Shown here in pieces: positions 1,016-17,463 of a stretch of 20,096 nt of DNA. A program made the translations under genes and the position numbers. The stretch lies in NCBI GenBank assembly GCA_900544435.1, contig UQVG01000009.1:1-20096 (forward strand), in the 5' to 3' direction. The stretch is from an uncultured Erysipelotrichaceae bacterium. GTDB lineage: Bacteria > Bacillota_I > Bacilli_A > Erysipelotrichales > Coprobacillaceae. The notes below the pieces were generated by a model, which was not told where the DNA came from, did not search any database, and saw nothing but the letters and a program-made list of their open reading frames with translations. Numbering within the stretch: position 1 is the first letter of the stretch; each line of letters opens with the position of its first letter.

Positions 1016-2016
1016 GTGTTTCACAACAATTGATTGAATCAATATCAAAAGATTTACGAATCAAAAGAGGTATTGGTGAAAATAATGCTGATTGGATTGC
1101 TAGAGTTATATATAGTGCAATTGCAAAAAATGCTTATTGCTCATTATGGGATCAACAAGAAGATGACCCGTCAATTACACATTTTAAGAAGAGATGTAAT
1201 GAACAGTTAATCTCTTATATTAGAATATATCCAGAGGTGAGAATGGTAATCTCTAGCTCTGAAATTGCTAAAGATTATGTTGATAATATTTATAATCTAT
1301 ATTTAAAAATGGGTTTTCTATTACATAAAAAAAATCATATTACGAACTCAAAACGTAGAAGTTCATCAATGGATGGTTGTTGTTTGGTAAGAAGTCCTGG
1401 ACCTGGAGAAGATCTATTTATGTCAGGAGTGGGATACTATTCATTATTAGAATCAAAAGAAAATGATGAGGATATAAGAGAAGTGTTCAATTTATCTAAG
1501 CTTTCTTTGGGGGAGTATTTAGATAAGCTTCAGAATAGGCTGGTGTTTAGATCATTAGAATCTCAAAGCGATATCGATTATTTAAGACTTGAACCACCTT
1601 TTTCAAGAGGATATTGGAAAAAACAAAAAGATGAAAATAGACTGTCTTTATTAAGGATTGGTCAGCCTGGGAATCAGATTTATTATCTATATAAGGCGAT
1701 AAATGATGAAGTCCTAGTATCTCAATTACCAGAATGGATGGTAATTGATGGAAACTATCGTATGATTTCATGGGGATTGTTAGACAAATATCGACAAGCT
1801 TCTAGTATAGATTACATTATTTCAGGTGATTTAGTTCATGTCCATTTGAACTATCTTTTACCAATTAATGAACAATTATTTTTTGAATTATTTAGTTGGA
1901 CTGAAAACTTCACTACCTTAAGTAGCTTTAATCGAACAATGGACATAAACGTTTTTAAGATAATGAAAGTGGAGTTTGAAAAGATTGGATTCAACTTTTT
2001 AGAAAGGGATAGATAA
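1012..2016 (+). CDS. Unrecognised protein, helicase partner 2
   Basis: The 334-residue product does not match a family I know. It is soluble, with no signal peptide or membrane segment. The N-terminal third is helical and moderately charged, and a basic patch (KRRSSS) sits near residue 115. The middle contains a glycine- and proline-rich turn (SPGPGEDLFMSGVGYY), and the C-terminal half is rich in aromatic residues. The ATG overlaps the upstream stop as ATGA, and the stop codon is two bases before the helicase ATG, so the three genes are almost surely co-translated. The position suggests a dedicated partner of the large helicase, like the small accessory proteins of Druantia-type systems. Function is unknown. 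Confidence 0.75.
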   Translation: MSVSQQLIESISKDLRIKRGIGENNADWIARVIYSAIAKNAYCSLWDQQEDDPSITHFKKRCNEQLISYIRIYPEVRMVISSSEIAKDYVDNIYNLYLKMGFLLHKKNHITNSKRRSSSMDGCCLVRSPGPGEDLFMSGVGYYSLLESKENDEDIREVFNLSKLSLGEYLDKLQNRLVFRSLESQSDIDYLRLEPPFSRGYWKKQKDENRLSLLRIGQPGNQIYYLYKAINDEVLVSQLPEWMVIDGNYRMISWGLLDKYRQASSIDYIISGDLVHVHLNYLLPINEQLFFELFSWTENFTTLSSFNRTMDINVFKIMKVEFEKIGFNFLERDR

Positions 2017-2018
2017 CT

Positions 2019-5000
2019 ATGGTAAATGGTGCTAATTCTGTACATAACGAATTAAAAAAAGAATTGGAAAAATATATAAAGTCACAGTATTTGGGAAAGT
2101 CTGAACTACTTTTAAATGTGATTGGAGAAAGACTAGACGAAGAAGGAGTTTTGTATCAAAAGCCCTATATAGAATCTTCACCAGCCTATGTTAGTGTACC
2201 AGATGGAATTCGTACTGCTAATATTGAAGACTGGAAGAAAGATTTCTTATGCAAACTATCTGAAAGTAATTTAGGTGTTTTTACTTCGCCATTTAAGCAT
2301 CAGATCCAAGCGTTAGAAGCAATAAACCAAGGGAAAGATTTATTTGTTTCAACAGGTACTGGTTCAGGGAAAACAGAATGTTTCATGTGGCCTTTGATGG
2401 TTAAACTTGCAAATGAAGCAAGAGAACATGGTGATAGTTGGGCACAGCGAGGTGTTAGAACAGTTATCATGTACCCTATGAATGCATTAGTTTCTGATCA
2501 GGTTGCTAGATTAAGACGATTAATTGGTGATAAAGAAGGAAAATTCTTGAATATTTTCACTGGTACATGTGGTAATGTTAGAAGACCACAATTTGGTATG
2601 TACACCGGTAGGACACCATATCCAGGTATAGAACCAAATAAGACACAAGATAGAAAACTAGAAAGCACACTTTCTCGTATGACAAAAGAAGGTTTGGGAC
2701 CTAGTGAACAAAAGTTTTTTGAAGAATTGGAAAAGAATGGTAAGATTCCAGCAAAGAAAGATATGACTGCTTTCTTACAAAAACTGCATAATAGTCAACA
2801 TTTCCCTGATGATGACGATGCTGAATTGATTACACGTTTTGAGATGCAGCGAGTAACGCCAGATATTCTAATTACTAACTATTCTATGCTTGAATATATG
2901 CTACTTAGACCAATTGAAGAAAATATTTGGGCTGATACAAAAAAATGGTTGGAGATGGATTCAAATAATAAGTTGTTATTTATTATTGATGAAGCTCATA
3001 TGTATCGAGGATCATCAGGCGGAGAAGTTGCTTTATTGATTAGAAGATTATTTAATAAAATTGGAATTAAACGTGACCAAGCTCAGTTCATACTAACTAC
3101 AGCAAGTATGCCTGATAAATCTGAAGAAGATAGAGAAAAGGTGATGGATTTTGCAAGAAATCTAACTGCTGCAGATGATGCAGATAACTTTTGTTATTTA
3201 AAAGGTGAACGAGAAAATATTGCAAATCAGCTTAAGTATAAGATTGATGAGAACTTATTCTTGAATTACAAAGCTGAAGAATTCGAAAATAATATTTCAA
3301 GATTAGATGCTTTAAAAAGATTTTGGAAAGAAGCAGGTGAAACTGTAAATTTTGAAGATGAATCATCCTGGTGTGAATGGATGTATGATAATCTTGTTTA
3401 TTTTGATAAATTTCATGAATTAATGATTCAATGTAGAGGTGCTGCAGTATCATTACAAGAACTAGCAGATACCATTTTTCCATCGCTAAATGGGGATGAT
3501 GCATTAAATGCTGTTGGTATTTTATTGGCTATCGCTCCATTAGCAAGAAACAGTAAAGGTGCGGTTTTATTCCCTGCTAGAATGCATATGTTATTCAGAG
3601 GAATAGATGGTATTTTTGCATGTTCTAATGATAAATGTTCACATGGTCACTCAGGTGGAGGTTTATCTCTAGGTGAATTATTCTTGAGTGATGGTAAGCT
3701 AGTATGTCCCCATTGTGGAAGCACAGTTTATGAATTATATAATGACAGAAGATGTGGAGCGTTATTTTTTAAGGGGTATATCCTAGAAGATGACATTAAT
3801 AAAAATAGGGCTTTTTTATGGCGCTATCCAGGTCAATTGATTGATCATAGAATGAAAGAGCTACATCTGTATATTCCAACTGATGATTATGTATTACCTA
3901 CTAGACAAGGAAAAAATAAAATTGAACCATGCTACTTAGACACAAGAAGTGGATTCATCTATTTTAAAGATGATACTTGTGAAAATAAAGAAGGATTTAG
4001 AAAACTTTATTACTGTAATTATTCACAAAAAGGACGTCCAGGAATTCTTACTTTTCCAACATGTCCACATTGTAGGCACATGTTCCATCAAACACAGTTA
4101 ACATCATTCAATACGAGAGGTAATCAATCTTTCTATAACTTGATTAAGACTCAGTTTGATGTTCAACCTGCTGTTCCTGGAAAAGATGATGATCCTATTA
4201 ATATTCCTAATGAAGGAAGAAAGGTTTTATTATTCTCTGATAGTAGACAAAGAGCTGCAAAGTTAGCACGCGATATGTCTGATACTTCAGATATACATGC
4301 TTCGAGACAGTTGTTTGCACTAGCTATTAGTGAAATGGAAAAGTCTAAAAAAGAACCAGAACCTTCTTTAAACGATTTATATGACTATTTCTGTTTGGTG
4401 GCAGGACAAAAACATGTTCAAATATTCCATGATACTGAAAGAGAAAAATTCTTTAAAGATTCTAATTCTACAGTAAAAAGTTATGAAAAGAGTCAAAAAA
4501 GAAGAAAAGAGTATTCTCCAAAACTAACTATAGATAATTCACCAATGAAAATGAAAGAAGTCTTATTAAGAATGTTCTCTGGTGGTTATAATACATTATT
4601 TGATTCTGCAGTAGCATGGCTTGAGCCAACTGACGATAACTTATATGACGCAATAGATGAATTGGAAGAAATGGGTTATGAAATCTCTGAAGAAGAATTT
4701 AAAGAAGTATTTAATGCGTGGCTTCTACAAATGAGCGATTTATACATGCCTATTGGACACAATATTTCTGATGATATTAGATTGGAAGTAAGAAATAATT
4801 ATGAAGGCTATGGAATTCCATTGGATTGGAAGTTTTCTAAAATTATTCAAGATGCTAAAGGTTGGGATAATCAATCAGAAGAAATGGAAGCTTGGAGAAA
4901 TGTTTTAACTCAAACTTTCCTAGACAATGGACAAGAGAATATGGCTCGCTTGTATTATGAGATGAGTCGAATTAAACCAAGATTTGATTTAAAACATGAA

Positions 5001-7271
5001 TGGTATAGATGTGATCAATGTTCAGAAGTAACACCTTATAAGTTGATTGGTAAATGTCCAAGCTGTGGGTCTGATCATATCCATAAAATGACTGATAAAG
5101 AGTATGAAGCGTTTGATTTTTGGAGAACACCAATTAAAGCAGCACTAGAAGGGTCTAAAATAAATGTAATCGATACTGAAGAGCATACTGCACAGCTTTC
5201 TCATAAAGATCAGACAGATAGTTTATGGTCTCAAACTGAAATGTATGAATTAAGATTTCAAGATATGGTGCAAGATGGTGAAATGCCAGTAGATATCTTA
5301 AGTAGTACAACAACAATGGAAGTTGGTATCGATATAGGTTCCTTAGTTGCCGTAGGTTTAAGAAACATACCTCCTATGAGAGAGAACTATCAACAAAGAG
5401 CAGGGCGTGCTGGTCGACGTGGATCAAGTTTATCAACTATTGTAACTTATTGTGAAAATGGACCACATGATACATTGTATTTTAACAATCCGGTACCAAT
5501 GTTTAGAGGTGATCCACGTACACCATGGATAGATATTGAAAGTGAAAAACTAATTCAGAGACATTTAAGCATTATTATATTTGAAGAGTATCTGAAAGAA
5601 TCTAGTCGAAGTCTAGATACTGTATATGCGGCTGAATTCCTTGATGATGATTTGGATGATTTTATCTCATACTTAAAGGATTTAAATATTAATCCTAATA
5701 GTGTATTAATTCCTAAAAATGTTAATTTCAATGAAAAAGAATTAGTCAAATTAATCATTTCATCTATGAAACAATTAAAAAATAAAAGGGATGAACATCC
5801 TGAATTATATGGCGTAAGAGATAATGAAGAATTAAACAAAAATGCAAAATCATTATTAGATGCTTTATATGAAGAAGGTGTAATACCAACGTATTCATTC
5901 CCTAAAAACGTAGTAAGCACATATATAACTAACTTAGAGGGACAAACTAAGTATGAAGTTGAACGAGGCTTAGACGTTGCTATCGGTGAGTATGCACCAG
6001 GCAGAGGTATTGTTGTTGATAAACAAACATACCAAATTGGTGGATTATATTACCCAGGTAGTGAAAGAAAAAAAGGTGCAGCTTCAGCTGCAGCGCGTAC
6101 ATATATGGAAGATCCAAATTATGTAAAGAAAATTTTAAAATGTCCTGAATGTGGATGGTTTGGGTTAGAATCTGAAAGTGAAGATACTTGCCCATTCTGC
6201 GGTAATGATTCATTAAAGATTGGAAGAGATATGGTCAAGCCATGGGGATTTGCTCCAAAGGACGCAAAATCTATTCCAAATGCGCAGTTATCCGAAGAAT
6301 ATACTGCAGTTCAACAACCGTTATATTCTACGTTACCAAAATCAGAGGATATTAAATTAATAAGAGGCTATAAAAATACGAAAATGGCTTCTAGAACAAA
6401 TCAAAGAATCATCATGTTAAACCATGGATTATCAGATCACGGGTTTATGATTTGTCCTGATTGTGGTGCTGCAATGCCAGGCGATGATGCAAGTGTTTTA
6501 AAAGGAATCAAGAGACCGTACAATTCAAGGTTTGCAAAATCACAATGTAGACATGATGGTGCTAGAAATATTAATTTAGGATATGATTTCATTACAGATA
6601 TGCTAGTATTGGAGATTGAATTAAACAAGGATGAAATTAATACTAAACGTGATAATATCTGGTTAAATAGATCAGCGCAGTCTTTGGCAGAAGCATTAAG
6701 ACTAGCAGCATGTCAAGAACTTGATGTTGAATTTACTGAACTTGTTACAGGATATCGTTATAGACAAAATAAGAATGGAAATTATATAGATATCTATTTA
6801 TATGACAGTTTGTCTAGCGGAGCAGGTTATTCTATCAACATTGCATCAATCATTGACAATTTACTAACTAATGTGGAGCAATTATTAATTGGTTGTGATT
6901 GCGAAAGTGCCTGCTATAAATGTCTAAAGCATTACAGAAATCAGTATATGCATGGTATTCTTGATAGATTTGCTGCGTTAGATTTATTAAGATGGGCAAA
7001 ATATGGTATCAAACCTTCTCAAATAGATATTAAAGATCAAAAAGATTATCTTGAACCACTGTCTAACATTTTAGAAGGCATGAAATGTGAAATAGTCTAT
7101 GAACGAAATAAGATTTTTGTTAGACATGATAATATAAAGAAACAAGTAGAAATATATCCAGCTATGTGGCGTGAGCCAAAAAGCAGAGAAGTAATCTATT
7201 TAAGCGATGCGTACCTAAAATATGCGAAACCTTATTGTATAGATGCAATCGCTAAAGCAATGGATTTATAA
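2019..7271 (+). CDS. Large SF2 DEAH-box helicase with C-terminal DUF1998/MZB domain (DruE/DISARM-like)
   Basis: A 1750-residue ATP-dependent helicase. Visible motifs: Q-motif-like FKHQIQAL at about 92-99, Walker A STGTGSGKT at 111-119, motif Ia YPMNALVSDQ at about 152-161, DEAH at 324-327, SDSRQRAAKLA near 740 opening the second RecA fold, GIDIGSL near 1105, and motif VI QQRAGRAGRRG at about 1125-1135. Several CxxC pairs (CPHC, CDQC/CPSC, CPEC/CPFC, CPDC) suggest zinc ribbons. The C-terminal cluster C1626, C1628, C1632, C1635 followed by a KHYRNQ segment is the DUF1998/MrfA zinc-binding (MZB) signature. A SF2 helicase plus DUF1998 in one very large chain is typical of Druantia DruE. In DISARM the same parts are split between DrmA and DrmB. 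The ATG has the binding site AGAAAGGG inside the end of the previous gene. The protein probably translocates on or unwinds invading DNA as the motor of a defence system. The family call is strong; assignment to a named system is not. Confidence 0.9.
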   Translation: MVNGANSVHNELKKELEKYIKSQYLGKSELLLNVIGERLDEEGVLYQKPYIESSPAYVSVPDGIRTANIEDWKKDFLCKLSESNLGVFTSPFKHQIQALEAINQGKDLFVSTGTGSGKTECFMWPLMVKLANEAREHGDSWAQRGVRTVIMYPMNALVSDQVARLRRLIGDKEGKFLNIFTGTCGNVRRPQFGMYTGRTPYPGIEPNKTQDRKLESTLSRMTKEGLGPSEQKFFEELEKNGKIPAKKDMTAFLQKLHNSQHFPDDDDAELITRFEMQRVTPDILITNYSMLEYMLLRPIEENIWADTKKWLEMDSNNKLLFIIDEAHMYRGSSGGEVALLIRRLFNKIGIKRDQAQFILTTASMPDKSEEDREKVMDFARNLTAADDADNFCYLKGERENIANQLKYKIDENLFLNYKAEEFENNISRLDALKRFWKEAGETVNFEDESSWCEWMYDNLVYFDKFHELMIQCRGAAVSLQELADTIFPSLNGDDALNAVGILLAIAPLARNSKGAVLFPARMHMLFRGIDGIFACSNDKCSHGHSGGGLSLGELFLSDGKLVCPHCGSTVYELYNDRRCGALFFKGYILEDDINKNRAFLWRYPGQLIDHRMKELHLYIPTDDYVLPTRQGKNKIEPCYLDTRSGFIYFKDDTCENKEGFRKLYYCNYSQKGRPGILTFPTCPHCRHMFHQTQLTSFNTRGNQSFYNLIKTQFDVQPAVPGKDDDPINIPNEGRKVLLFSDSRQRAAKLARDMSDTSDIHASRQLFALAISEMEKSKKEPEPSLNDLYDYFCLVAGQKHVQIFHDTEREKFFKDSNSTVKSYEKSQKRRKEYSPKLTIDNSPMKMKEVLLRMFSGGYNTLFDSAVAWLEPTDDNLYDAIDELEEMGYEISEEEFKEVFNAWLLQMSDLYMPIGHNISDDIRLEVRNNYEGYGIPLDWKFSKIIQDAKGWDNQSEEMEAWRNVLTQTFLDNGQENMARLYYEMSRIKPRFDLKHEWYRCDQCSEVTPYKLIGKCPSCGSDHIHKMTDKEYEAFDFWRTPIKAALEGSKINVIDTEEHTAQLSHKDQTDSLWSQTEMYELRFQDMVQDGEMPVDILSSTTTMEVGIDIGSLVAVGLRNIPPMRENYQQRAGRAGRRGSSLSTIVTYCENGPHDTLYFNNPVPMFRGDPRTPWIDIESEKLIQRHLSIIIFEEYLKESSRSLDTVYAAEFLDDDLDDFISYLKDLNINPNSVLIPKNVNFNEKELVKLIISSMKQLKNKRDEHPELYGVRDNEELNKNAKSLLDALYEEGVIPTYSFPKNVVSTYITNLEGQTKYEVERGLDVAIGEYAPGRGIVVDKQTYQIGGLYYPGSERKKGAASAAARTYMEDPNYVKKILKCPECGWFGLESESEDTCPFCGNDSLKIGRDMVKPWGFAPKDAKSIPNAQLSEEYTAVQQPLYSTLPKSEDIKLIRGYKNTKMASRTNQRIIMLNHGLSDHGFMICPDCGAAMPGDDASVLKGIKRPYNSRFAKSQCRHDGARNINLGYDFITDMLVLEIELNKDEINTKRDNIWLNRSAQSLAEALRLAACQELDVEFTELVTGYRYRQNKNGNYIDIYLYDSLSSGAGYSINIASIIDNLLTNVEQLLIGCDCESACYKCLKHYRNQYMHGILDRFAALDLLRWAKYGIKPSQIDIKDQKDYLEPLSNILEGMKCEIVYERNKIFVRHDNIKKQVEIYPAMWREPKSREVIYLSDAYLKYAKPYCIDAIAKAMDL

Positions 7272-7295
7272 TATAGAAACACGGGAGAATGACAA

Positions 7296-7499
7296 ATGAA
7301 CGTAAGTTATAAGAAGTTATTCAAATTATTGATTGATAAAGAAATTAAAAAAACAGTATTTGCTAAGAATGCAAACATAAGTCAGAACACATTAGCAAAA
7401 TTATCAAAAAATGAATATGTATCAATGGAAGTGCTAGTCAAGATTTGTACATATTTAAATTGTACTTTTGATGATGTTGTGGAAATAGTAAAAGACTGA
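7296..7499 (+). CDS. Small Cro/C1-type (XRE) helix-turn-helix regulator
   Basis: The 67-residue protein is essentially one Cro/C1-type DNA-binding domain: VFAKNANISQNTLAKLSKNEYVSMEVLVKICTYLNC carries the two HTH helices (roughly 22-42) and the following helices. It belongs to the short YozG-like regulators that are often found beside restriction-modification and toxin genes. A weak GGGAGAA binding site precedes the ATG. The gene starts 24 bases after the helicase and ends 40 bases before hsdR, so it sits inside the defence operon at the boundary between the helicase and restriction modules. It probably tunes expression of the operon or of hsdR, as C proteins do in other systems. The operator is not identified, and a role as an autorepressor is inference. 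Confidence 0.85.
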   Translation: MNVSYKKLFKLLIDKEIKKTVFAKNANISQNTLAKLSKNEYVSMEVLVKICTYLNCTFDDVVEIVKD

Positions 7500-7539
7500 T
7501 GAATTGGATTTTATTCAGAGTAAGAAAGGAGATATTTAT

Positions 7540-10500
7540 ATGGCTGGACGTTTTACAGAATTAACAAGAGTACAAATGCCTGCAATAATGCATCTTACCA
7601 GGTTGGGCTATACATATACTGGAAAGATTCGTGATAGCCAAGCTGGGGATGTGTATGATCCTGATACTAATATTTTGATTAAGGTCTTTAAAGAACAATT
7701 TGAAAAATTGAATCCAGATAAAAAGGATACATTTAATCAAGTATTAAAAGATATCAAAATCGAATTAGATAATGATGATTTAGGTAAGAGCTTCTATAAT
7801 AGATTAGTTTCGGTATCTCCATCAAAGTTGATTGATTTTGATCATCCAAATAATAATATTTATCATTGCACGGCTGAATTCACTTGTAGAAGAGACGAAG
7901 ATGAATTTAGACCTGATATTACATTATTCATTAACGGATTACCTATATCATTTATTGAGGTTAAAAAGCCTAATAATGCAGGTGGAATGTTAGCTGAAAG
8001 TAATAGAATGAATAATCAAAGATTTCCTAATAAAAAATTTAGACGATTCATCAATATTACTCAATTAATGCTATTCTCAAATAATATGGAATACGATACT
8101 GAAGGAGGAATTGTACCAATTCAGGGAGTTTTCTATTGTACTGGCTCTAGAAATAAATCCTCATTCAATTGTTTCAGAGAAGAAAATAAAGGTGGAGAGA
8201 AAGTAGCTCCATATAATGCAGAATATCCTTATAAGGCTATTGATCCACTTGTTGAAAAAAGAGTATTAACAGATTTCAATTGTCAAGTAATCCATACATC
8301 AGCGGAATACCAAACAAATCTGAATACTAATTCACCTACTAATAGAGTTTTAACATCAATGTGTTCTCCTGAAAGATTATTATTTTTGATTAAATATGGT
8401 ATCGCATATGTGAAGTTTGAAAAAGAAGAAAATGGAAAAATAGTTTCAATTGACCAAAAGCATATCATGCGTTATCAACAAATGTTTGCTGCATTATCAG
8501 TTAAGGAACAATTAGCAGAAGGGAAAAAATCTGGTGTTATATGGCACACACAAGGTAGTGGTAAGACTGCATTATCATATTATATGAATAAAGTACTTAC
8601 TGATTATTTTGCAACAGTGAATAAGGTTCCTAAATTCTATTTCATTGTTGATAGGTTAGATTTATTGAAACAGGCCTCACAAGAGTTTGCTGCTCGTGGA
8701 TTAGAAGTTAAGACTGCTAATTCACGTAAAGAATTAATGGATCAATTTAAAGATAATAGTTCATTGGTTGGAACAAGTGGTAAACCTGAAATTACAGTTG
8801 TAAATATTCAACGCTTTGCTGAAGATAAAGAGAAGGTTAGAATTAATTCTTATTCTACTAACCTTCAGAGAATATTCATTATTGATGAAGCACATAGAGG
8901 ATATAATCCGAAAGGATCTTTCTTGGCTAATTTATTTGATGCTGATCCAGATTCAATTAAAATAGCTCTTACAGGAACACCTTTATTAAAGGCAGAACGC
9001 GCTTCATGGAAAGTATTTGGGAATTATTTCCATACATACTACTATGATAAGTCAATACAAGATGGATATACTTTAAAAATAATCAGAGAAGATATTGAAA
9101 CATCATATAGGGAAAAATTATTTGATGTTTATAATAGATTAGAACAATTAGTAAATAAGAAAGACGTGAAAAAATCAGATATTGTAGAACATGATTCATA
9201 TGTAAAAGAATTGTTGAGATACATCATTGACGATTTAGGTAAGTTTAGAATCCTTCAAGGGGATAATACACTTGGCGGAATGATTGTTTGTGAGACAAGT
9301 GAACAAGCTAGAAAACTTCATGAGTATTTTGATGAAATACAAGATGAATTAAATTCTAAGACAAATCACAAAACACATTTTAAAGCTGGTCTAATATTGC
9401 ATGATAGCGATGATAAAGAAACTAGGGATAACATCATAGCATCTTTCAAAAAAGATCAAACTGTAGATGTATTGATTGTATTTAATATGCTATTAACTGG
9501 TTTTGATGCACCACGTCTTAAAAAGCTATATTTAGGAAGAAAACTACGAGATCATAACTTGTTACAAGCAATTACAAGAGTGAATAGACCATATAAAGAT
9601 TGTAGATATGGCTACATAGTAGATTTTGCTGATATTAAAGAGAACTTTGAAGAAACAAATCAAAGTTATTTAGAAGAATTAAATAGATTTAACAATCCTG
9701 AAGAGGTTGGGGAAGGTAATACAACTGACACTTTCTTACAGGTTATCGAAGATAAAGATGCTGTTATTCAAGAAATGAAAAATATTGGTAATAAGCTATT
9801 TGATTATACCTTGAATAATGCTGAAATCTTTAGCCAAGAAATATCTGATATAACAGATAAAATGACATTAATAGACTTAAAGAAAACATTAATCTCTGCT
9901 AGGGATTACACTAATATTGTTAGAACTTTTGGTGACGATGATTTAAAAGCAGAATTCAGTAAGTTAGAAATCTATATGGTTAATCAACTTCTTGCAGAAG
10001 TGCAAAGACATATAGATATATTAAATCAAAAAGAATATTTTGAACGTAGCGATGAAACAAAGCAAATGATTAATGAGGCTATGGCTAATATTCAATTTAG
10101 TTTTAATAAGATTGGCACAGATGAAATGGAGATTGTTTCAGCTGCGCAACTACAAGAAAAATGGGAATATACAATTCATTCATTTACTATTAATGATGAT
10201 TTAGAAGATCCAGAGTTTATTACATTAAGAGAAGCTTTCATGAAAAGATTTAAAGAGCATGGATTTGAAATTGATTCAGTTGCTAAATTTAATGAACAAG
10301 CAAAAGCACTAGATGATTTTATTAAGAAGTTATCAGATTTGAAAAAGAAAAATAGGGCATTAGCTAGTAAATATAATGGAGACATGAAGTTTGCTAGAGT
10401 TCACAAACGTGTTAGGGAAACTAATGCTTTAAGGGAACCGACAACAGATATGCCTGTTATTTCTTATCAAGATATTCAAATTGTCACTGCATTATACAAA

Positions 10501-10713
10501 ATCAAAATGGATATCGATCAAAAAGTTTATGACCGAAATGATATATTGAAAAAGGATGCATACTTTGAACAAACAGTTATGAAAGAATTAACAGAGAGTA
10601 TGAAATCTTTAGATATTCCTGGCAACAGAAGTGATAGAGTTTTCTTGCAAAAATGCATTTCAAAGCAATATTTAGAACAATATAAAAATACATATATGCC
10701 TGTAGTGAATTAG
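7540..10713 (+). CDS. hsdR: Type I restriction enzyme, R subunit (HsdR)
   Basis: A 1057-residue HsdR, the motor and nuclease subunit that translocates DNA and cuts far from the recognition site when that site is unmethylated. The N-terminal PD-(D/E)xK nuclease is visible as RPD126, then E140-V-K142. Two RecA folds follow: Walker A QGSGKT at 338-343, DEAH at 449-452, an LTGTPL motif III, and motif VI QAITRVNRPY starting at 676. The C-terminal helical region binds the methylase. Length is normal for the family. The ATG at 7540 was chosen because a strong AGAAAGGAG lies eight bases upstream; the in-frame TTG 36 bases earlier has no such site. The hsdM-S fusion begins 11 bases after the stop, so both are in one transcript. 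Confidence 0.95.
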   Translation: MAGRFTELTRVQMPAIMHLTRLGYTYTGKIRDSQAGDVYDPDTNILIKVFKEQFEKLNPDKKDTFNQVLKDIKIELDNDDLGKSFYNRLVSVSPSKLIDFDHPNNNIYHCTAEFTCRRDEDEFRPDITLFINGLPISFIEVKKPNNAGGMLAESNRMNNQRFPNKKFRRFINITQLMLFSNNMEYDTEGGIVPIQGVFYCTGSRNKSSFNCFREENKGGEKVAPYNAEYPYKAIDPLVEKRVLTDFNCQVIHTSAEYQTNLNTNSPTNRVLTSMCSPERLLFLIKYGIAYVKFEKEENGKIVSIDQKHIMRYQQMFAALSVKEQLAEGKKSGVIWHTQGSGKTALSYYMNKVLTDYFATVNKVPKFYFIVDRLDLLKQASQEFAARGLEVKTANSRKELMDQFKDNSSLVGTSGKPEITVVNIQRFAEDKEKVRINSYSTNLQRIFIIDEAHRGYNPKGSFLANLFDADPDSIKIALTGTPLLKAERASWKVFGNYFHTYYYDKSIQDGYTLKIIREDIETSYREKLFDVYNRLEQLVNKKDVKKSDIVEHDSYVKELLRYIIDDLGKFRILQGDNTLGGMIVCETSEQARKLHEYFDEIQDELNSKTNHKTHFKAGLILHDSDDKETRDNIIASFKKDQTVDVLIVFNMLLTGFDAPRLKKLYLGRKLRDHNLLQAITRVNRPYKDCRYGYIVDFADIKENFEETNQSYLEELNRFNNPEEVGEGNTTDTFLQVIEDKDAVIQEMKNIGNKLFDYTLNNAEIFSQEISDITDKMTLIDLKKTLISARDYTNIVRTFGDDDLKAEFSKLEIYMVNQLLAEVQRHIDILNQKEYFERSDETKQMINEAMANIQFSFNKIGTDEMEIVSAAQLQEKWEYTIHSFTINDDLEDPEFITLREAFMKRFKEHGFEIDSVAKFNEQAKALDDFIKKLSDLKKKNRALASKYNGDMKFARVHKRVRETNALREPTTDMPVISYQDIQIVTALYKIKMDIDQKVYDRNDILKKDAYFEQTVMKELTESMKSLDIPGNRSDRVFLQKCISKQYLEQYKNTYMPVVN

Positions 10714-10724
10714 GAGAGGTAAAA

Positions 10725-12971
10725 ATGCAAATTGAAAATATAAAAACAAGAACAGTTCATCTTATTGATGAATTGAAATCAACATGCCAAACATATGGTA
10801 TGGGAAATGATGGAAATGAATATAAAATTATTACTCAAGTCTTCTTATACAAATTTCTTAATGATAAATTTTGTTATGAATTAAAGCAATTACGTCCTGA
10901 ATTTAACAAAGAAGACTGGGAAAAAGATTTTGAAAATATGTCTGAAGATGATATCGAGGACTTGTTTGATGAATTATCACCGGATATTCCTAGATTCTAT
11001 CCACATCATCTTATTTCGTACTTATGGAATAGACAAACAGATGGGGAATTTCATAAATTATTCGATGATACAATGACAGATATTGCAGCAAAGAATATTG
11101 ATATTTTCTCAACACAAACAACAAATAACACAAAGATGCCATTGTTTGAAACTTTAACAAATTATGTAACAGACGAAGCTCAAAGACCAGCTTTTTCAAG
11201 AGCTCTAGTTGATAAATTAGTTAGATTTTCATTTGAAGATGCATTTCAACAACATTATGATTTCTTTGCATCAATATTTGAGTACTTAATTAAGGATTAT
11301 AATACTGCAGGTGGTGGTAAGTATGCAGAATATTATACACCCCATGCAATTGCTACTATTATGGCTAGACTATTAGTCGGTGATAATTCTGATTTACATA
11401 ATATTGAATGTTATGATCCATCTGCTGGTACGGGTACATTATTAATGGCTTTGGCACATCAAATTGGTGAAGATAGATGTACTATTTTCTCGCAGGATAT
11501 TTCTCAAAAAAGTAATAAAATGTTAAAACTTAATCTTATTTTGAATGGTCTTGTTTCTTCGATGGATCATGCAATTCAAGGTGATACTTTAGTTTCTCCA
11601 TATCATAAAAGTGATGATGGTCAAACATTAAGAACCTTTGATTATGTAGTCTCTAATCCTCCTTTTAAAATGGATTTTTCTGATACTAGAGAAGCTATTT
11701 CTGATCAGGTTTCTAGGTTTTGGGCAGGAGTTCCGAAAATTCCTGATAATAACAAGGAGAAAATGGCCATATATACTTGTTTTATTCAACATGTTATAAA
11801 TTCATTGAAAGATAATGGCAAAGGAGCCATTGTTGTACCGACAGGTTTCCTTACTGCAAAAAACGGAATCGAAAATAAGGTGTTAAAATCTATTGTTGAT
11901 GATGGAATTGTTTATGGATGTATAAAAATGCCCGCAAATGTTTTTGCAAATACTGGAACTAATGTATCTGTGTTATTTTTTGACAAATCTAAAAATAATA
12001 AATCTGTATTGTTAATTGATGCTACTAATTTAGGGGAAGAATATAAGGATGGTAAAAATACTAAAAGACGTTTAAACTTAGAAGAAATAGATTTGATAAC
12101 AAATGCTTTTTTAAATGAGGATGAAATTGATAAATTTTCTGTGAAAGTAAGTTATCAACAAATAAAAGATAATAAATATTCGTTATCTGCCGGTCAATAT
12201 TTTGTAGTAAATGTACCATTTGATGCTCCTAAATCTTCTGATTTTAATAAAAAGAAGGAAATGATAATTAATAATATTCAGAATTGTTCAAAAAGAATAA
12301 GTGATTTAAATTTTCAAATTCAAAGCATTACGAAGATGTTAGAGTATAGGGAGAAAATAAAAATGATTTATAGTAATCAATTAAAGAGAAATATTCCACA
12401 AAATTGGATTGTGAAATCTATTAATGATATTGCCTATATGAAAACAGAAAGTATTACACCACAGAGTGGAGTGATATATGATCATTATAGTATCCCTGCG
12501 TTTGACGATAATAAATTGCCTATTAAACAAAATGGCGATGAGATAGACAGCAATAAATACTGTGTACCAAATAATTCAATATTGATATCTAAATTAAATC
12601 CTCAGTTCAGCAGAGTTTGGGTGCCGTTTAAATATGCTGATAGCTGTATTTGTTCTACAGAATTTATTCCATTCGTACCTTTTGAAGAATCAAATAAAGG
12701 ATTTTTATATATGATTTTTAGTAGTGATGAATTTCAACAATATATGACACAAAGTGCTTCTAGTTCAACTGGTAGCAGAAAGAGAATATCGCCTGAATTG
12801 ATTGGTAAATATAAATTTCCTTTTCCAGAAGATAAGGAAATTCTAGCAAAATATAATGAGTTATTTTCTCTTTTGCTTGAACTTGAAAAATGTAATCTAC
12901 AATTAGGAATTGCTATAAAAGAATATAATGATAGTGTAGTACCACTTATCGCTAGAGGTTATATAATGTAG
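10725..12971 (+). CDS. hsdM: Type I methyltransferase HsdM fused to a single-TRD HsdS half
   Basis: A 748-residue fusion. Residues 1 to about 490 are a complete HsdM: the helical HsdM_N domain, EYYTPHAIA near 202, the AdoMet-binding motif DPSAGTGTL at 231-239, and the catalytic N6-adenine motif NPPF at 311-314. The usual HsdM ends near 500-530 residues. Here an amphipathic helix-rich linker (about 505-553) leads to one HsdS-type target-recognition domain that starts with IPQNW near 557 and contains TGSRKRI near 682-688. A C-terminal helix follows, resembling the conserved spacer helix of HsdS. A full HsdS has two recognition domains; only one is present and no separate hsdS occurs in the window. 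By analogy with half-subunit S proteins, two fused chains would pair to recognise an interrupted palindrome and methylate adenine on both strands. The binding site GGAGAGG is well placed. Confidence 0.93.
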   Translation: MQIENIKTRTVHLIDELKSTCQTYGMGNDGNEYKIITQVFLYKFLNDKFCYELKQLRPEFNKEDWEKDFENMSEDDIEDLFDELSPDIPRFYPHHLISYLWNRQTDGEFHKLFDDTMTDIAAKNIDIFSTQTTNNTKMPLFETLTNYVTDEAQRPAFSRALVDKLVRFSFEDAFQQHYDFFASIFEYLIKDYNTAGGGKYAEYYTPHAIATIMARLLVGDNSDLHNIECYDPSAGTGTLLMALAHQIGEDRCTIFSQDISQKSNKMLKLNLILNGLVSSMDHAIQGDTLVSPYHKSDDGQTLRTFDYVVSNPPFKMDFSDTREAISDQVSRFWAGVPKIPDNNKEKMAIYTCFIQHVINSLKDNGKGAIVVPTGFLTAKNGIENKVLKSIVDDGIVYGCIKMPANVFANTGTNVSVLFFDKSKNNKSVLLIDATNLGEEYKDGKNTKRRLNLEEIDLITNAFLNEDEIDKFSVKVSYQQIKDNKYSLSAGQYFVVNVPFDAPKSSDFNKKKEMIINNIQNCSKRISDLNFQIQSITKMLEYREKIKMIYSNQLKRNIPQNWIVKSINDIAYMKTESITPQSGVIYDHYSIPAFDDNKLPIKQNGDEIDSNKYCVPNNSILISKLNPQFSRVWVPFKYADSCICSTEFIPFVPFEESNKGFLYMIFSSDEFQQYMTQSASSSTGSRKRISPELIGKYKFPFPEDKEILAKYNELFSLLLELEKCNLQLGIAIKEYNDSVVPLIARGYIM

Positions 12972-13018
12972 AAATAATCGATTTATTATGGAAAGGAACC
13001 TTGATAGGAAGTGGTGAA

Positions 13019-15736
13019 ATGGAAGATATTAATAAACATATTGTTGATAAGATTATAATTATTGATAATGCTATATCTAAAAATATACAATTCGTAGATA
13101 CAATAGGGCGTGGTTTAGTATCAACAAATGTGTTGTCTCACTTGAGAAATCTTATTGAACATATTTTAGTTTATGGTTTTGGTAAAGAACAAAAGAAAAA
13201 AGTGGAAATAGACTGGGAGCATTTAAATAAAATTGATGAAAGAATGCGGCAATATTCGGATTATGCTTTTATTTTAAAATTTCATAGGTTATTACAAATT
13301 TCAGAATCACATTACACACAAACAGAAGAGGATTCAGAAAGATTAATGATTTCTTATTATGAATATTTAATTAGATTAAGAAATTTTGTGAATGAAAATT
13401 TTGGCTTTAATATTTTAGATAATTTAGGTGATTATCCTCTTAATCTAGACGATTCGGATAAAGAATATTATTTAAGTATTATAAAAAAAATAGAGAAGTT
13501 TCAGTACGCATATCCATTAAAAGCTCAACGCTTTTATGTTCAAAAAAGAAAAGCAATCATTATTGATTCTAAAATAATATACGAGATTATTTTAACACCT
13601 GCCGTGGATAGAGTAAGCAAATTTGATCGTATCGTTGCTTATTCGAAAACTGATATTCCTACAAACTATGCAATAAGTGCCACAATAGCTGAAACATATA
13701 TAAATGAATTTGGAAAGTATGTACCGATTAGTATAATTGATACATTTGCATGTTCAATAAGACCGTGTGAGTTAAAAAATTATTCTAAGTTTTTTGGGCT
13801 TAAAGTGGATTTTCAAAGTAATAATAGTGACTATAAAAGGATAATGCAGTATTTATCTTCTACATCTCATAACTTGTCTTCTTTAGTAGAAACGGATGAT
13901 AAGTATTATAATAGTATTGTAAATGAATTTGGAAAAACTGCAGTAGGGAAAGAATTTGTAGAAGTATTAAATAAATCACGAAATATTATATTAAAAGGAA
14001 GGTCTGGTAGTAATATACTTAGGTATTTACTATACACAATGAAAAACCAAGTGTTGAAAGACCAATATTATTTCGAGGCAAATCAACTAATATCAAATCT
14101 ATATTTAGACTACGGATGTATTCCTTTCGATACAATGCCATTAACATCATCATTAAAAAATCATAATCCATCGTCTAAGGATTTATATGAATGCATCAAT
14201 TTGGATGGAAGAGAACATGAGTATTTATCAAGAATGTTATTAAGAAATGCAGAAATAGGCAGAGAAATATACACAGATATTAAAGATATAAATTTTGACA
14301 ATATTGAGCAGCTAGTAGAACACTTTAATAATAAAGTATATTATAAGCATTTACATAGAAGAATAGAAATGTTTTCACATTACTTATACATTAAAGGGTA
14401 TGAAGATAACATTCTTGAGATAATACAAAAATTACAAAATGAGACAACTATGAATATTGGTGGATATGAATCAATGGCAAAAGGGTGGGTTGATCAAAGA
14501 ACAGATATTGATGATGAAAACAAAAGAGATACAATAAAAAGATTATTCGTCTCTTCCAGAGTTGCTTTAGTGTACGGGGCTGCTGGAACTGGAAAAACCA
14601 CTCTTTTAAAATATGTGTCTGAACTGTTTGAGAAAAACAAAAAAATATTTGTAGCTAATACAAATCCGGCTGTTGAATTATTAAAAAGAAGAATAAATGA
14701 TCAAAACTCTTCTTTTATGACAGTGGCAAAAGCTATAAGAGGTAAGTATAAAACTGATTTATTAATTCTCGATGAATGTAGTACTATTAGTAATTATGAT
14801 ATGATTGAATTGTTAAAAAACATTGAGTATCAAGCAATTCTTTTGGTTGGTGACACATACCAAATTGAGTCAATTCAATTTGGTAACTGGTTTTCCATCA
14901 TAAGATTTTTTTTAAGAAAAAATGTGATATTTGAATTAACTAATGCATTTAGAACTAAGAGTGAAAATTTATTAGATTTTTGGTCTTGTATACGACAATT
15001 TAGAATTGACGAAGCTTTGACAAAAATGACGGCATATGGATACAATAATTTACTTGATGAAACTTTGTTTATTCCTAATGATAAAGATGAAATCATATTG
15101 TGTTTGAATTATGATGGGATTTATGGAGTGAACAATTTAAATAGAATAATTCAATCAAATAATCATGGAAAGTCAGTAAAAATAGGTATTAATACATACA
15201 AAGTTAATGATCCGGTATTATTTAATGATTCTAATCGCTTTTCCCCTATTATATTCAATAATAACAAAGGAATTATTACCAATCTTATTGATAGAGAAAA
15301 TGATGTATATTTTGAAGTTGAATTGGATAAATTAATAACGGAGATAGACGTTTATTGTGTGGATGGTTTGAGTTATATAGGAAATAACCGAACTGAAACT
15401 GCATCAATTGTAGGGTTCTATGTGGACAAAAACATTGATTCTGACGATGATTCACACCAAGAGAGAATGATTCCTTTTCAAATAGCATATGCTGTATCTA
15501 TTCATAAAGCACAAGGGCTAGAGTACAGCTCCGTTAAAATAGTTGTATCGAATGAAGTTGAAGAAGATGTAACTCATAATATTTTTTATACTGCTATTAC
15601 TAGGTCAAAAGAGAAATTAAAAATTTATTGGAGTCCCGAAGTAATGAATAGAGTGTTTGCTGGATTTAATGATGATAAATTGAAAAAAGATGCTAATATC
15701 TTAGCTGGAAAATATAAATTAAAAATGCATAAATAA
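13019..15736 (+). CDS. HEPN-like N-terminal region fused to SF1 (RecD/UvrD-like) helicase
   Basis: A 905-residue protein. The helicase is C-terminal: Walker A GAAGTGKT at 520-527, Walker B LILDE ending at E586, VGDTYQ motif III-like stretch, IHKAQGLEY near 830 and the final YTAITRSKEKLKIY motif (UvrD_C_2 type). The first ~130 residues are helical and contain LRNLIEH, an R-x4-H pattern (R43...H48) typical of HEPN ribonucleases, followed by a further helical segment ending LIRLRNFVNENFGF. Residues about 170-500 are not recognised. The start was placed at ATG 13019, which has AGGAAGTGG six bases upstream; an in-frame TTG at 13001 has poorer spacing. The gene is the last of the operon, 47 bases after hsdM-S. 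It may degrade RNA when the helicase senses damaged or invading DNA, an abortive-infection backup to restriction. The helicase call is firm; HEPN activity is inference from one motif and helical context. Confidence 0.88.
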   Translation: MEDINKHIVDKIIIIDNAISKNIQFVDTIGRGLVSTNVLSHLRNLIEHILVYGFGKEQKKKVEIDWEHLNKIDERMRQYSDYAFILKFHRLLQISESHYTQTEEDSERLMISYYEYLIRLRNFVNENFGFNILDNLGDYPLNLDDSDKEYYLSIIKKIEKFQYAYPLKAQRFYVQKRKAIIIDSKIIYEIILTPAVDRVSKFDRIVAYSKTDIPTNYAISATIAETYINEFGKYVPISIIDTFACSIRPCELKNYSKFFGLKVDFQSNNSDYKRIMQYLSSTSHNLSSLVETDDKYYNSIVNEFGKTAVGKEFVEVLNKSRNIILKGRSGSNILRYLLYTMKNQVLKDQYYFEANQLISNLYLDYGCIPFDTMPLTSSLKNHNPSSKDLYECINLDGREHEYLSRMLLRNAEIGREIYTDIKDINFDNIEQLVEHFNNKVYYKHLHRRIEMFSHYLYIKGYEDNILEIIQKLQNETTMNIGGYESMAKGWVDQRTDIDDENKRDTIKRLFVSSRVALVYGAAGTGKTTLLKYVSELFEKNKKIFVANTNPAVELLKRRINDQNSSFMTVAKAIRGKYKTDLLILDECSTISNYDMIELLKNIEYQAILLVGDTYQIESIQFGNWFSIIRFFLRKNVIFELTNAFRTKSENLLDFWSCIRQFRIDEALTKMTAYGYNNLLDETLFIPNDKDEIILCLNYDGIYGVNNLNRIIQSNNHGKSVKIGINTYKVNDPVLFNDSNRFSPIIFNNNKGIITNLIDRENDVYFEVELDKLITEIDVYCVDGLSYIGNNRTETASIVGFYVDKNIDSDDDSHQERMIPFQIAYAVSIHKAQGLEYSSVKIVVSNEVEEDVTHNIFYTAITRSKEKLKIYWSPEVMNRVFAGFNDDKLKKDANILAGKYKLKMHK

Positions 15737-15840
15737 AAATAATATAACTATATAAACGGTTATTTCTATGATGTTTATGCATTTTAAGACACAAAAGTAT
15801 GCTTTAGGCTTACCAACTGTCATAACAAGTGATGATATTG

Positions 15841-15846
15841 TATAAT
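15841..15846 (+). promoter_or_regulatory. Candidate -10 box in the leader region
   Basis: A perfect TATAAT lies about 105 bases after the defence operon. The -35 position at 17-bp spacing is only TGTCAT, a poor match. If active, it would start a transcript near 15853 that contains the foldable RNA, the nested terminator and the MIRAPP leader before the sigma-like gene. Confidence 0.35.
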
Positions 15847-15878
15847 AATACTTCATTTTGTTAATGGCAGGGTGGTAG

Positions 15879-15953
15879 TTAGAAGAAATAGAAATAATTC
15901 TAATGCACCTGTTTATTGAAAAGGTGCGTGGGATTGGTGAGGGTTTCTTCTAA
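15879..15953 (+). ncRNA. Candidate structured leader RNA (three-way junction)
   Basis: A perfect 10-bp stem, TTAGAAGAAA (15879-15888) with TTTCTTCTAA (15944-15953), encloses a small AGAA/TTCT hairpin and a GCACCT/AGGTGC hairpin (15905-15910 with 15922-15927). The remaining single-stranded stretch is purine-rich (GGGATTGGTGAGGG). It lies downstream of a TATAAT and upstream of an intrinsic terminator, the arrangement of a riboswitch or attenuator leader. I do not recognise a known class, and chance folding in AT-rich DNA is possible. Confidence 0.35.
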
Positions 15954-15979
15954 TATATATGTAAAACCAAATATAATTG

Positions 15980-16027
15980 AAAAAGTGACAAAAGTGATTG
16001 AACATCACTGGATCGTCACTTTTTTTT
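15980..16027 (+). terminator. Nested intrinsic terminator
   Basis: An outer stem AAAAAGTGAC (15980-15989) pairs with GTCACTTTTT (16015-16024). Inside it, AGTGAT (15993-15998) pairs with ATCACT (16004-16009) around a TGAAC loop. A run of T follows at once. It can end transcripts of the defence operon, and it could also be a regulated attenuator for the sigma-like gene downstream, because AAGTGAC and AAGTGAT are near repeats that could compete for the same partner strands. Confidence 0.8.
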
Positions 16028-16084
16028 ATTAAAATTTACGATGTGGAGCGTGTTTCGTCGCCTATTTATTGAGGAGATGATGAC

Positions 16085-16105
16085 ATGATAAGAGCTCCAC
16101 CATGA
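16085..16105 (+). CDS. Six-codon leader ORF encoding MIRAPP
   Basis: The ORF reads ATG ATA AGA GCT CCA CCA TGA. A good ribosome binding site, GAGGAG at 16071-16076, sits eight bases before the ATG. The peptide ends in Arg-Ala-Pro-Pro, the same motif known from the arrest peptides ApdA and ApdP, where addition of the last proline is blocked. The TGA ends at the first base of the hairpin that hides the ribosome binding site of the next gene. A ribosome stalled at the Pro-Pro step would cover the left arm of that hairpin. Upstream, GTGGAGC (16043-16049) can pair with the leader codons at 16094-16100, offering a second layer of structure. The ORF is too short for proof by coding statistics; the case rests on binding site, motif and geometry. 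Confidence 0.55.
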   Translation: MIRAPP

Positions 16106-16134
16106 CTTCCTGAAAAAAATATTTTTCAGGAGGT
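16105..16134 (+). promoter_or_regulatory. Hairpin sequestering the Shine-Dalgarno site of the sigma-like gene
   Basis: ACTTCCTGAAAAA (16105-16117) pairs with TTTTTCAGGAGGT (16122-16134) around a four-base loop. The stem is 13 bp with a single G-U wobble. The right arm contains the whole AGGAGG (16128-16133) that serves the ATG at 16139, so the gene should be silent when the stem forms. No U-tract follows, so this is not a terminator. Confidence 0.75.
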
Positions 16135-16138
16135 AAAT

Positions 16139-16591
16139 ATGAGGTTTATTTATACATTAGAAGAAAAGAAATTTAAAGAAGAGAAGGAGAAAGAGAACGA
16201 GATACTTAGGGCTTTTGGAATAGATGAAGAAACAATTGAAAAAATCTATGAGTACGATAAAAAGATGCTCAACAAGAACAGATCGTTTTGTACAAACGAA
16301 GTTTATCTTGAAGATACATTTTATAAGATGAGTAGACCAAATGTTTCTTTGTTAGTATGTGATGTTCATCCTTTTGAAACAACAGATGACATTGAATATG
16401 GATTACAGTTGATATTTCCATATCATGCTGTATCACAAATTGATCAGCTTACCTTACAAGCTCTATTATTAAGGATAAATGGTTATACACTTAAAGAAAT
16501 TGGTGCTCAAATGCACTTAAAAGAATATCAAGTTGATTATATATTTAGAAAATTAAAAAAATATTTAAAAAAGTTTACGAAACATAGCTGA
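16139..16591 (+). CDS. Sigma-70 region 4-like regulator (Tn916 Orf7-like position)
   Basis: A 150-residue acidic protein. The C-terminal part (about 100-146), with LTLQALLLRINGYTLKEIGA then HLKEYQVDYIFRKL, is a sigma-70 region 4-type helix-turn-helix. The N-terminal half is charged and not recognised. Size and place, ahead of a second small sigma/HTH gene and an excisionase, match orf7 of Tn916-like elements, whose product activates excision and transfer genes. The binding site AGGAGG is strong but buried in a hairpin just after the MIRAPP leader, so translation is probably conditional. The link to Tn916 is by gene order and domain type; sequence identity was not tested. Confidence 0.75.
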   Translation: MRFIYTLEEKKFKEEKEKENEILRAFGIDEETIEKIYEYDKKMLNKNRSFCTNEVYLEDTFYKMSRPNVSLLVCDVHPFETTDDIEYGLQLIFPYHAVSQIDQLTLQALLLRINGYTLKEIGAQMHLKEYQVDYIFRKLKKYLKKFTKHS

Positions 16592-16886
16592 ATTCACTGC
16601 CTATTATATGTAAGGGGATAATAGTTTAATCCCAAAGAGATCTTTGAAAATAGAATAAAGGCGATATCAGTCCACACCATAGTTTTGCATCTAGCGAATC
16701 AAATACAATGATACTTGCAATAGGTCTTAGTCCGAGCGTGATAACAACCGTCGCAGGCAGAGATATTGTGCAGGATAAAACAAAAGGACACCTGCTTGAT
16801 ATACATCAAATGAACGACTAATAATGGGATATGTCGTTGCTGATATTGAAACATAACATGAACTATATAAGAGGGAAGGAATTCCA
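16592..16886 (+). other. 295-bp spacer with a possible relic ORF
   Basis: The stretch has a small GGGAT/ATCCC hairpin at 16617-16640 and an open frame from about 16653 to the TAA at 16819-16821. The only ATG in that frame (16708) would give 37 residues beginning MILAIGLSPSVITTVAGRDI. It has no ribosome binding site, yet the segment is richer in G+C than its surroundings, as if derived from other coding DNA. I see no recognisable family. It may be a relic or the promoter region of the next gene. Confidence 0.3.
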
Positions 16887-17174
16887 ATGGCTACATTATT
16901 ATATTGGCCAATAGTAGATGTTGATGTTGAATCATTACCTGATCCAGCATCAACACTAATGGCTAATAAAAGGGAACATTTATATTACGAATTAGAACAA
17001 TTAACTAAAGATTTAACTGCAGTTCAACAAAGACGTCTATATATGAAATATTACTTAGAAATGTCAAATGTGGAAATTGCTGAAGTTGAACAAGTTTCAT
17101 ATAGTGCTGTTCGTAAATCAATTGATCAAAGTATCAGATATATAAGAAGAAAGATGTACAAGTTCATTCATTGA
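16887..17174 (+). CDS. Small sigma-70-like HTH protein (Tn916 Orf8-like position)
   Basis: The 95-residue protein has a typical region 4 pattern: LTAVQQRRLYMKYYLEMSNV, then EIAEVEQVSYSAVRKSIDQS, ending in a basic helix (RYIRRKMYKFIH). Proteins like this are common in Gram-positive integrative elements between orf7 and xis. The ATG has AAGGA six bases upstream. The gene lies between the larger sigma-like gene and the excisionase and probably controls the recombination genes with them. It lacks regions 2 and 3, so it is not a complete sigma factor and may act as an activator or anti-activator. Confidence 0.8.
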   Translation: MATLLYWPIVDVDVESLPDPASTLMANKREHLYYELEQLTKDLTAVQQRRLYMKYYLEMSNVEIAEVEQVSYSAVRKSIDQSIRYIRRKMYKFIH

Positions 17175-17244: not shown

Positions 17245-17463
17245 ATGGAAAAACGTATTGAAAAAGAAATTATGACAGTAAGAGAATTTGCTAAGCATAC
17301 TGGATTAAGTGAATGCTGCGTTAGAAAGTTATTAAGAGAAGAAAAAGTGTTTTACATGAAGATCGGTAGCAGATATTATATTAATGCACCTAGAACAATT
17401 GACTTTCTAACACATAATCCAATTATGGATATTACTTGGAAAGAACCGGTAGCCTCAGTGTAG
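17245..17463 (+). CDS. xis: Excisionase-family DNA-binding protein
   Basis: A 72-residue protein with a MerR-like winged helix of the excisionase (HTH_17) family: MTVREFAKHTGLSECCVRKL, then KVFYMKIGSRYYINAPRTID. Members bend DNA at the ends of integrative elements and push the integrase towards excision. The binding site AAGGAG lies 11 bases before the ATG, slightly long but usable. In Tn916-like elements int follows xis directly; here a terminator and non-coding repeats follow instead, so the integrase partner is missing or moved. The gene itself looks intact. Confidence 0.82.
   Translation: MEKRIEKEIMTVREFAKHTGLSECCVRKLLREEKVFYMKIGSRYYINAPRTIDFLTHNPIMDITWKEPVASV

Follow-up and report, generated by a model that had tools for sequence, protein, structure and literature searches.

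The question raised by this locus is how a gene whose ribosome binding site is buried in an RNA hairpin comes to be translated, and what a very short reading frame placed directly before that hairpin has to do with it. The gene encodes a sigma-like protein and lies in the window, as the whole stretch of 20,096 nucleotides that was analysed is called here. An earlier note on this DNA had proposed that a six-codon leader with its own Shine-Dalgarno (SD) site, ending in the arrest motif RAPP, stalls a ribosome on the left arm of the hairpin and thereby frees the site of the sigma-like gene. The SD, MIRAPP, the hairpin, AGGAGG and the gene start were all found in place when the sequence was checked, and are the following.

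16071..16076, plus strand: SD of the leader, GAGGAG, read from the sequence.
16085..16105, plus strand: leader reading frame encoding MIRAPP and a stop, read from the sequence, with its motif conserved in homologues.
16091-16102, plus strand: RxPP core of the leader, with the predicted P site at 16097-16099 and the A site at 16100-16102.
16105..16117, plus strand: left arm of the SD-sequestering hairpin, by folding, pairing and covariation with the relative L001.
16122..16134, plus strand: right arm of the same hairpin, containing AGGAGG at 16128-16133, by folding, pairing and covariation.
16139..16591, plus strand: sigma-like gene (sigma B), 150 aa, with a C-terminal helix-turn-helix (HTH) resembling sigma region 4 (weak Sigma70_r4_2 and TIGR02937 matches).

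The leader (ATG ATA AGA GCT CCA CCA TGA) ends on the first base of the hairpin, 16105, and only two codons precede its Arg codon, which leaves no room for a localisation signal or transmembrane (TM) segments. Its own ribosome binding site is clear in the window and is weak or absent in many relatives. The arms of the hairpin are complementary at 12 of 13 positions, the thirteenth being a U-G pair, and the RNA from 16071 to 16160 folds at -23.9 kcal/mol (z -4.0), with none of 200 shuffles equally stable; the whole AGGAGG of the sigma-like gene is thus buried, as had been claimed. A ribosome footprint extends to about +15 from the P site; if the P site holds the first Pro codon (16097), the footprint reaches 16112 and covers ACTTCCTG, the partner of CAGGAGGT. 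By the computed geometry, 16106-16111, the left-arm strand paired with AGGAGG, lies within the footprint of a stalled ribosome, which agrees with the overlap proposed earlier.

An intrinsic RxPP arrest leader that opens the hairpin, acting as a translational attenuator for the sigma gene of a mobile element, is in our view the probable reading of this arrangement, and we hold it with considerable confidence. In the mRNA, the hairpin at 16105-16134 hides the entire SD of the sigma-like gene, as its sequence and folding show. A stall with 16097 in the P site and 16100 in the A site would hold the ribosome over 16106-16111 and fill the left arm to about 16112, so that the hairpin could not form over AGGAGG, which at +31 would stay outside the footprint. 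Given the spacing needed by two ribosomes, the 42 nt from the P site to the ATG should fit a second one. The sigma-like protein would then be made and would presumably act on the promoters of its element. Since the same arrangement stands before related genes of other mobile elements, the jam is probably the on-switch.

The stalling, the direction of control and the input are inferred, the stalling from published work on RxPP peptides; the burial of the SD, the covariation, the conservation and the specificity were established computationally. According to PMC12992588, ApdA and ApdP stall with the third RxPP residue in the P site and the fourth in the A site, Arg is irreplaceable, and the x position gives strong arrest with Gly and Ala and partial arrest with Ser, Asp or Pro, Gly for Ala retaining or strengthening arrest in both peptides; in ApcA only the exact RAP works. 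The minimal RxPP is said to be sufficient for arrest in PMC10951233, where N-terminal context can also abolish RxPP stalling, and where ApdP is given as KCIRAPP, with its Lys-Cys-Ile touching 23S rRNA. Points against the arrest reading are therefore that MIRAP offers almost no N-terminal context, which can matter for RxPP stalling, and that ApcA tolerates no departure from RAP.

The nearest relative whose DNA could be compared, L001, was the only match in the genome-contig search, and its protein has 49% identity to the sigma-like protein of the window. Its leader, GTG ATA CGA GGA CCG CCT ATA GCC TCC TAA, encodes MIRGPPIAS, and a candidate earlier ATG is also present. Compared with the window, the Arg codon and the two Pro codons carry synonymous changes, and Gly stands in the place of Ala. 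The two hairpins have 12 pairs in common, of which four show compensatory changes and one a one-sided change, and none is broken. The alignment that the earlier note had suggested as a check was thus found to give both compensatory changes in the stem and a leader motif conserved through synonymous codon changes. A tyrosine integrase lies just upstream in L001 (PF00589, E 7e-31), and none was noticed among the window ORFs, part of which were searched.

Profile searches extended the comparison to the relatives of the L001 genome (194 genomes) and to the whole order (315 genomes), where places were counted at E 1e-20 or better. The order-wide search gave 44 places in 29 of the 315 genomes, with 41 distinct 100-nt upstreams, and the homologues are distant, with 22-35% identity to the window protein in the 18 other rows compared. 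A phylum-wide sample of 392 genomes gave matches in 10 genomes, all already found. With x left free in the scan, 26 of the 41 distinct upstreams were found to have RxPP at a distance of 100 nt or less, and x was always Ser, Gly, Ala or Asp; L010 (motif at -111) and L086 (match beginning inside the gene) raise the count to 28 of 41. Arg belonged to the search pattern, and the control is a count over all frames of the 41 upstreams, in which 26 of 30 xxPP tetrapeptides start with Arg. Similarly, of 26 homologue upstreams, 17 have R[AGSD]PP within 100 nt, where dinucleotide shuffles predict 0.05; this set includes near-duplicates with the motif (L011/L015) and without it (L012/L013, L014/L016, L019/L020). 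Across the family the conserved unit is R-[S/G/A/D/P]-P-P, mostly with a Cys or Ile residue in front of Arg, so the conservation predicted for MIRAPP holds for the R-x-P-P core but not for the whole peptide.

The earlier note had also named a hairpin kept with its leader lost as the case that would speak against it. This is not the rule, RxPP being present in 28 of 41 upstreams, but 13 of 41 lack it even after the addition of L010 and L086, and a few of these still seem to bury the SD. Several elements carry a second sigma-like gene, sigma A (Sigma70_r4), followed by a small resolvase-N-like protein and then by sigma B, and three of the 13 (L014, with the identical L016 and L037; L084; L087) sit behind a leader-bearing sigma A. 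L058 (with the identical L013) comes after a sigma A with RPPP, and the other nine motif-less upstreams are L042, L052, L054, L077, L078, L080, L081, L082 and L083. By eye, L019/L020, which have no nearby RxPP, seem to possess an SD hairpin and another short ORF, perhaps a different leader. Additionally, the motif was met in metagenome proteins called too long: in a scan of 141 proteins, with 120 of 220 matches listed, 10 of the 13 flagged N-terminal extensions contain RAPP, RGPP or RSPP. Of the remaining three, P0010 was flagged artefactually by the rule, and P0037 and P0080 lack RxPP; for P0018-P0020 the query used to find them already included the extension. In P0006, RAPP starts 16 residues before the conserved start.

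The leaders are specific to sigma-like genes. Among the 147 genes of the loci whose start is supported by an SD, 34 were found to carry R[AGSDP]PP in the 100 nt before them, and all 34 encode sigma-like proteins. Nine are assigned by profile to sigma A and 24 to sigma B (some belong to the profiles themselves), while the 34th, in L046 (RDPP), is another kind of protein, whose sigma region 4 domain passes the Pfam cut-off. The set used below, selected with R[AGSDP]PP, consists of 33 of these rows and the window. It leaves out L038 sigma B, whose gene start was not fixed, L010 and L086, where over 100 nt separate the motif from the start of the match, L051/L018, which lack a clear gene start, and L005 sigma A, which was missed by the start rule. 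Within this selection x is Ser in 16 leaders, Gly in nine, Ala in four, Asp in three and Pro in two, residues that match the arrest-permitting set of ApdA/ApdP mutagenesis; in 26 of the 34 the residue before Arg is Cys or Ile. The Arg codon is AGA in 18, CGT in 13 and CGA in three, and all four Pro codons occur. L033 and L034 retain MRCRSPPL despite an ATG to GTG change of the start and four synonymous third-base changes, and farther upstream, in the same frame (open from a TTG), amino-acid changes are present.

These codon patterns bear on two other explanations. If the attenuator sensed amino-acid starvation, the hairpin would be opened by slow decoding at the Arg or Pro codons and not by the peptide, and these codons do lie directly before it. 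However, there are no runs of a single codon, the Arg and Pro codons vary, and the middle residue is limited to S/G/A/D/P, which starvation sensing would not require; we consider this explanation highly improbable. The RxPP codons could also be the by-product of a conserved DNA or RNA motif, either a protein-binding site or the anti-SD strand itself, and in 20 of the 34 leaders the SD-pairing strand does contain bases of the Pro codons. It contains none in the other 14 (the window, L001 and the L003-like group among them), and yet these retain RxPP; moreover, Arg is written as AGA or CGN, Ser as TCN or AGY, and the third bases of Pro vary. The 14 leaders of this kind, together with the 26 of 30 xxPP tetrapeptides that start with Arg, indicate that the prolines are not just anti-SD sequence, and the by-product explanation is hardly credible to us. 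The arrest peptide remains the preferred reading.

The leaders are short. An in-frame canonical start (ATG, GTG or TTG) lies within 20 codons of Arg in 30 of 34, the nearest one being at most 17 codons away in these 30, so that the chain at the stall would measure about 4-20 aa when counted from the nearest in-frame start. Some leaders have additional in-frame starts, in L038 sigma A for instance at 27 and 30 codons, and the SD sites of many leader starts are poor. No canonical start falls within 20 codons in L012 sigma A, L046 sigma B, L049 and L061, the last of which has internal stops in its gene. The leader frame enters the sigma gene without a stop in five of 34, and other leaders stop in or after the hairpin. 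The position of termination is free and that of RxPP is not.

The geometry of the window was found in nearly all of the 34 leaders. The median SD accessibility was 0.005 for the free RNA, 0.605 when the mRNA was masked as far as 15 nt beyond the first base of the P site and 0.283 with a shuffled spacer (mononucleotide shuffles). Accessibility after masking exceeded 0.5 in 21 of 34 leaders, and the gain exceeded 0.25 in 29. In 33 of 34 leaders the first base of the SD-pairing strand falls inside the footprint, and in 31 the whole strand does; the SD itself lies at +25 to +43, and the P site is 36-58 nt (median 44) from the gene start. Not every hairpin is significant alone, since in 15 of the 34 leaders the SD is buried equally well by more than 5 of 100 shuffled spacers; in 12, more than 10 of 100 bury it as well or better. 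The masked accessibility was 0.07 in L035 and 0.31 in L033, the latter rising to 0.64 in another sequence context.

With the SD buried (accessibility below 0.2) in 31 of 34 leaders, the hairpin might be a plain translational silencer or a thermometer, with a leader that only couples translation and whose sequence would not matter. In the five leaders whose frame is open into the sigma gene, read-through could also open the hairpin. Nevertheless, the stop position and the frame vary while RxPP and the 36-58 nt distance from the P site to the gene start are kept, and Arg stands first in most xxPP tetrapeptides, as given above. We judge the silencer unlikely and continue with the arrest leader.

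The neighbourhood of the sigma-like gene looks like that of a mobile element, and the earlier suggestion that the gene looks like the activator of an integrative element rests on it. In the window, a helicase-like gene precedes the leader region, the Sigma70_r4_2 and TIGR02937 matches of sigma B are below cut-offs (PF08281 is found in most of the 120 sigma B relatives listed, of 220 matches), and two small genes follow.

16887..17174, plus strand: 95-aa protein with a sigma region 4-like HTH, just below the Pfam cut-off and nearly identical in L001.
17245..17463, plus strand: excisionase-like HTH protein of 72 aa (TIGR01764, E 5e-4, below the curated cut-off), identical in L001.

Similar motifs, GCCTATTTATTGAGG (16060-16074) and GCCTATTATATGTAAGG (16599-16615), flank the sigma-like gene, likewise in L001 when compared by eye, and could be promoters recognised by the sigma-like protein. 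The stretch behind sigma B (16592-16886) is non-coding, its start is similar in L001 by eye, and it contains CTTTGAAAA, which we take to be boxA-like. The cargo at 1012-15736 resembles a defence island, with a Druantia DruE1-like protein (1751 bits), a weak DruD match, a type I restriction-modification pair and a PDC-S53 protein. A PemK/MazF-like gene lies behind sigma B in several elements; the identities of element genes come from Pfam on L011 only, the order in other loci having been read from ORFs. The leaders of sigma A read RAPP in L005 and L011, RGPP in L070, RPPP in L008 and L012, RDPP in L023 and RSPP in L033 and L038. In a search of plasmids, five records were found to encode a protein weakly related to that of the window, and the three annotated records (two plasmids and one phage-collection record) are of a tet(O)-type element; a search with sigma A gave the same plasmids and two Salmonella plasmid records with 65% of the protein. 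No relative was found in two scans of viral contigs, and E. coli genomes gave no match.

In the attenuators of cat and erm genes, a short leader with its own ribosome binding site carries its stall codons ahead of a hairpin in which the following SD is buried. The present leaders share with them the hairpin that hides the SD and the left arm within the stalled footprint, where the SD-pairing strand begins in nearly all leaders. They differ in that the cat and erm stalls need a drug and serve a resistance gene, whereas here the arrest motif is predicted to be intrinsic and the gene is sigma-like. This likeness gives rise to a further explanation, namely a drug-dependent attenuator, in which a weak RxPP pause would be fixed by a peptidyl-transferase or tunnel antibiotic and the element would sense ribosome-targeting drugs. 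The common geometry and the short chain at the stall are in its favour, as is one leader type that stands before sigma A behind tet(O)-type genes in L032 (Enterococcus faecalis plasmid), L033 (Monoglobus plasmid record) and L034 (Streptococcus suis record), and the Ser and Asp variants arrest partially in ApdA/ApdP (PMC12992588). Against it, Arg and the x set fit intrinsic arrest, no resistance gene was recognised beside the window copy, and no inducer is known. The drug-dependent explanation is doubtful but has a real chance of being right; the intrinsic arrest leader is retained as the main reading.

The region before the leader may hold a transcription attenuator or a short RNA (15817-16025) upstream of the translational attenuator, because a promoter-like site, a strong fold and a terminator-like hairpin occur there and are partly conserved in L001.

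15817..15846, plus strand: promoter-like site CTGTCA-18-TATAAT, with 10 of 12 consensus matches and its sequence conserved with L001.
15853..15977, plus strand: structured 5' untranslated stretch between the promoter-like site and the terminator-like hairpin, by folding.
15979..16025, plus strand: terminator-like hairpin in two storeys with a T run behind it, located before the leader, by folding and also in L001.

Promoter-like sites of that quality number 12 in the region, against 10.0 in shuffles. The fold of 15853-15990 has a z of -5.0, and the terminator-like hairpin has z -5.0 in the window and z -5.8 in its L001 counterpart; a consensus terminator scan restricted to loops of 3-8 listed no terminator, although the fold at 15979-16025 is strong. 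By eye, terminator-like hairpins with T runs stand directly before the leader in L011, L018, L033, L034, L040, L041, L056, L072 and L087, and a candidate TTG start lies at the end of the T run in the CRSPP group. Two 22-nt arms (15944-15965 and 16145-16166, 86% complementary) join the 5' stretch to the first codons of the sigma-like gene, and 15944-15965 also pairs locally by folding. Rfam gave one sub-threshold match in the window, to rli38 (30 bits where the gathering score is 49; E 0.12), which was taken as chance, and no match in L001.

The earlier note had called such a leader undescribed. This stands for the short attenuator form in a mobile element, as the open-licence PubMed Central literature searched gave no description of RxPP leaders from conjugative or integrative elements, but it is limited to that form, because PMC12992588 describes RAPP/RGPP uORFs in Streptomyces lividans (SLIV_33595 and SLIV_33605) that precede ECF sigma genes and have four predicted TM domains. 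ApdA, ApdP, ApcA and the S. lividans uORFs have in common with the present leaders an R-x-P-P type core, an invariant Arg, an overlapping x set and a position upstream of a regulated gene, which in the two S. lividans cases is likewise a sigma factor gene (PMC12992588). There are also differences: ApdA, ApdP and ApcA act on protein localisation genes, and they and the S. lividans peptides carry signal sequences or TM segments, whereas the leaders described here precede sigma-like genes, would have a chain of about 4-20 aa at the stall (from the nearest in-frame start), are unannotated, and belong to mobile elements of Bacillota. The survey of predicted proteomes in PMC12992588 gives RAPP/RGPP uORFs as absent in many Gram-positives including Bacillota, and the present leaders, being short and mostly unannotated, would be missed by such surveys.

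The SecM stall is released by pulling on the nascent chain. SecM (GIRAGP) also controls a downstream gene by an Arg-containing core, with Ile before Arg as here, but is a long force sensor (PMC12992588), and CruR of Bordetella pertussis (RAPP, copper), likewise with an Arg core controlling a downstream gene, is a long metal sensor (PMC12992588, PMC9426467). The window leader would have a chain of only five residues at the stall, which could not be pulled from outside as in SecM, ApdA and ApdP, and the signal would therefore have to act at the ribosome itself. Candidate inputs would be the peptidyl transferase centre, the rate of rescue or drop-off, a ribosome-targeting drug and the frequency of leader initiation. 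This matters to the arrest reading, since a constitutive stall would mean constitutive derepression unless it were modulated.

The RxPP arrest peptides of the cited papers are longer sensors of secretion, metals and similar. The leaders found here join a predicted intrinsic arrest with cat-style attenuation and recur before the sigma-like genes of mobile elements, and they raise the question of what ends or stabilises a stall in which the nascent chain counts five residues and stays inside the tunnel. It is possible, and offered here tentatively, that an ultra-short RxPP arrest peptide serves mobile elements of Bacillota for gauging the state of the host ribosome: stalls that are not cleared would open the sigma genes and turn the element on. 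If this were true, transfer would be tied to the translational distress of the host, such as an overload of rescue, a peptidyl-transferase drug or slow drop-off.
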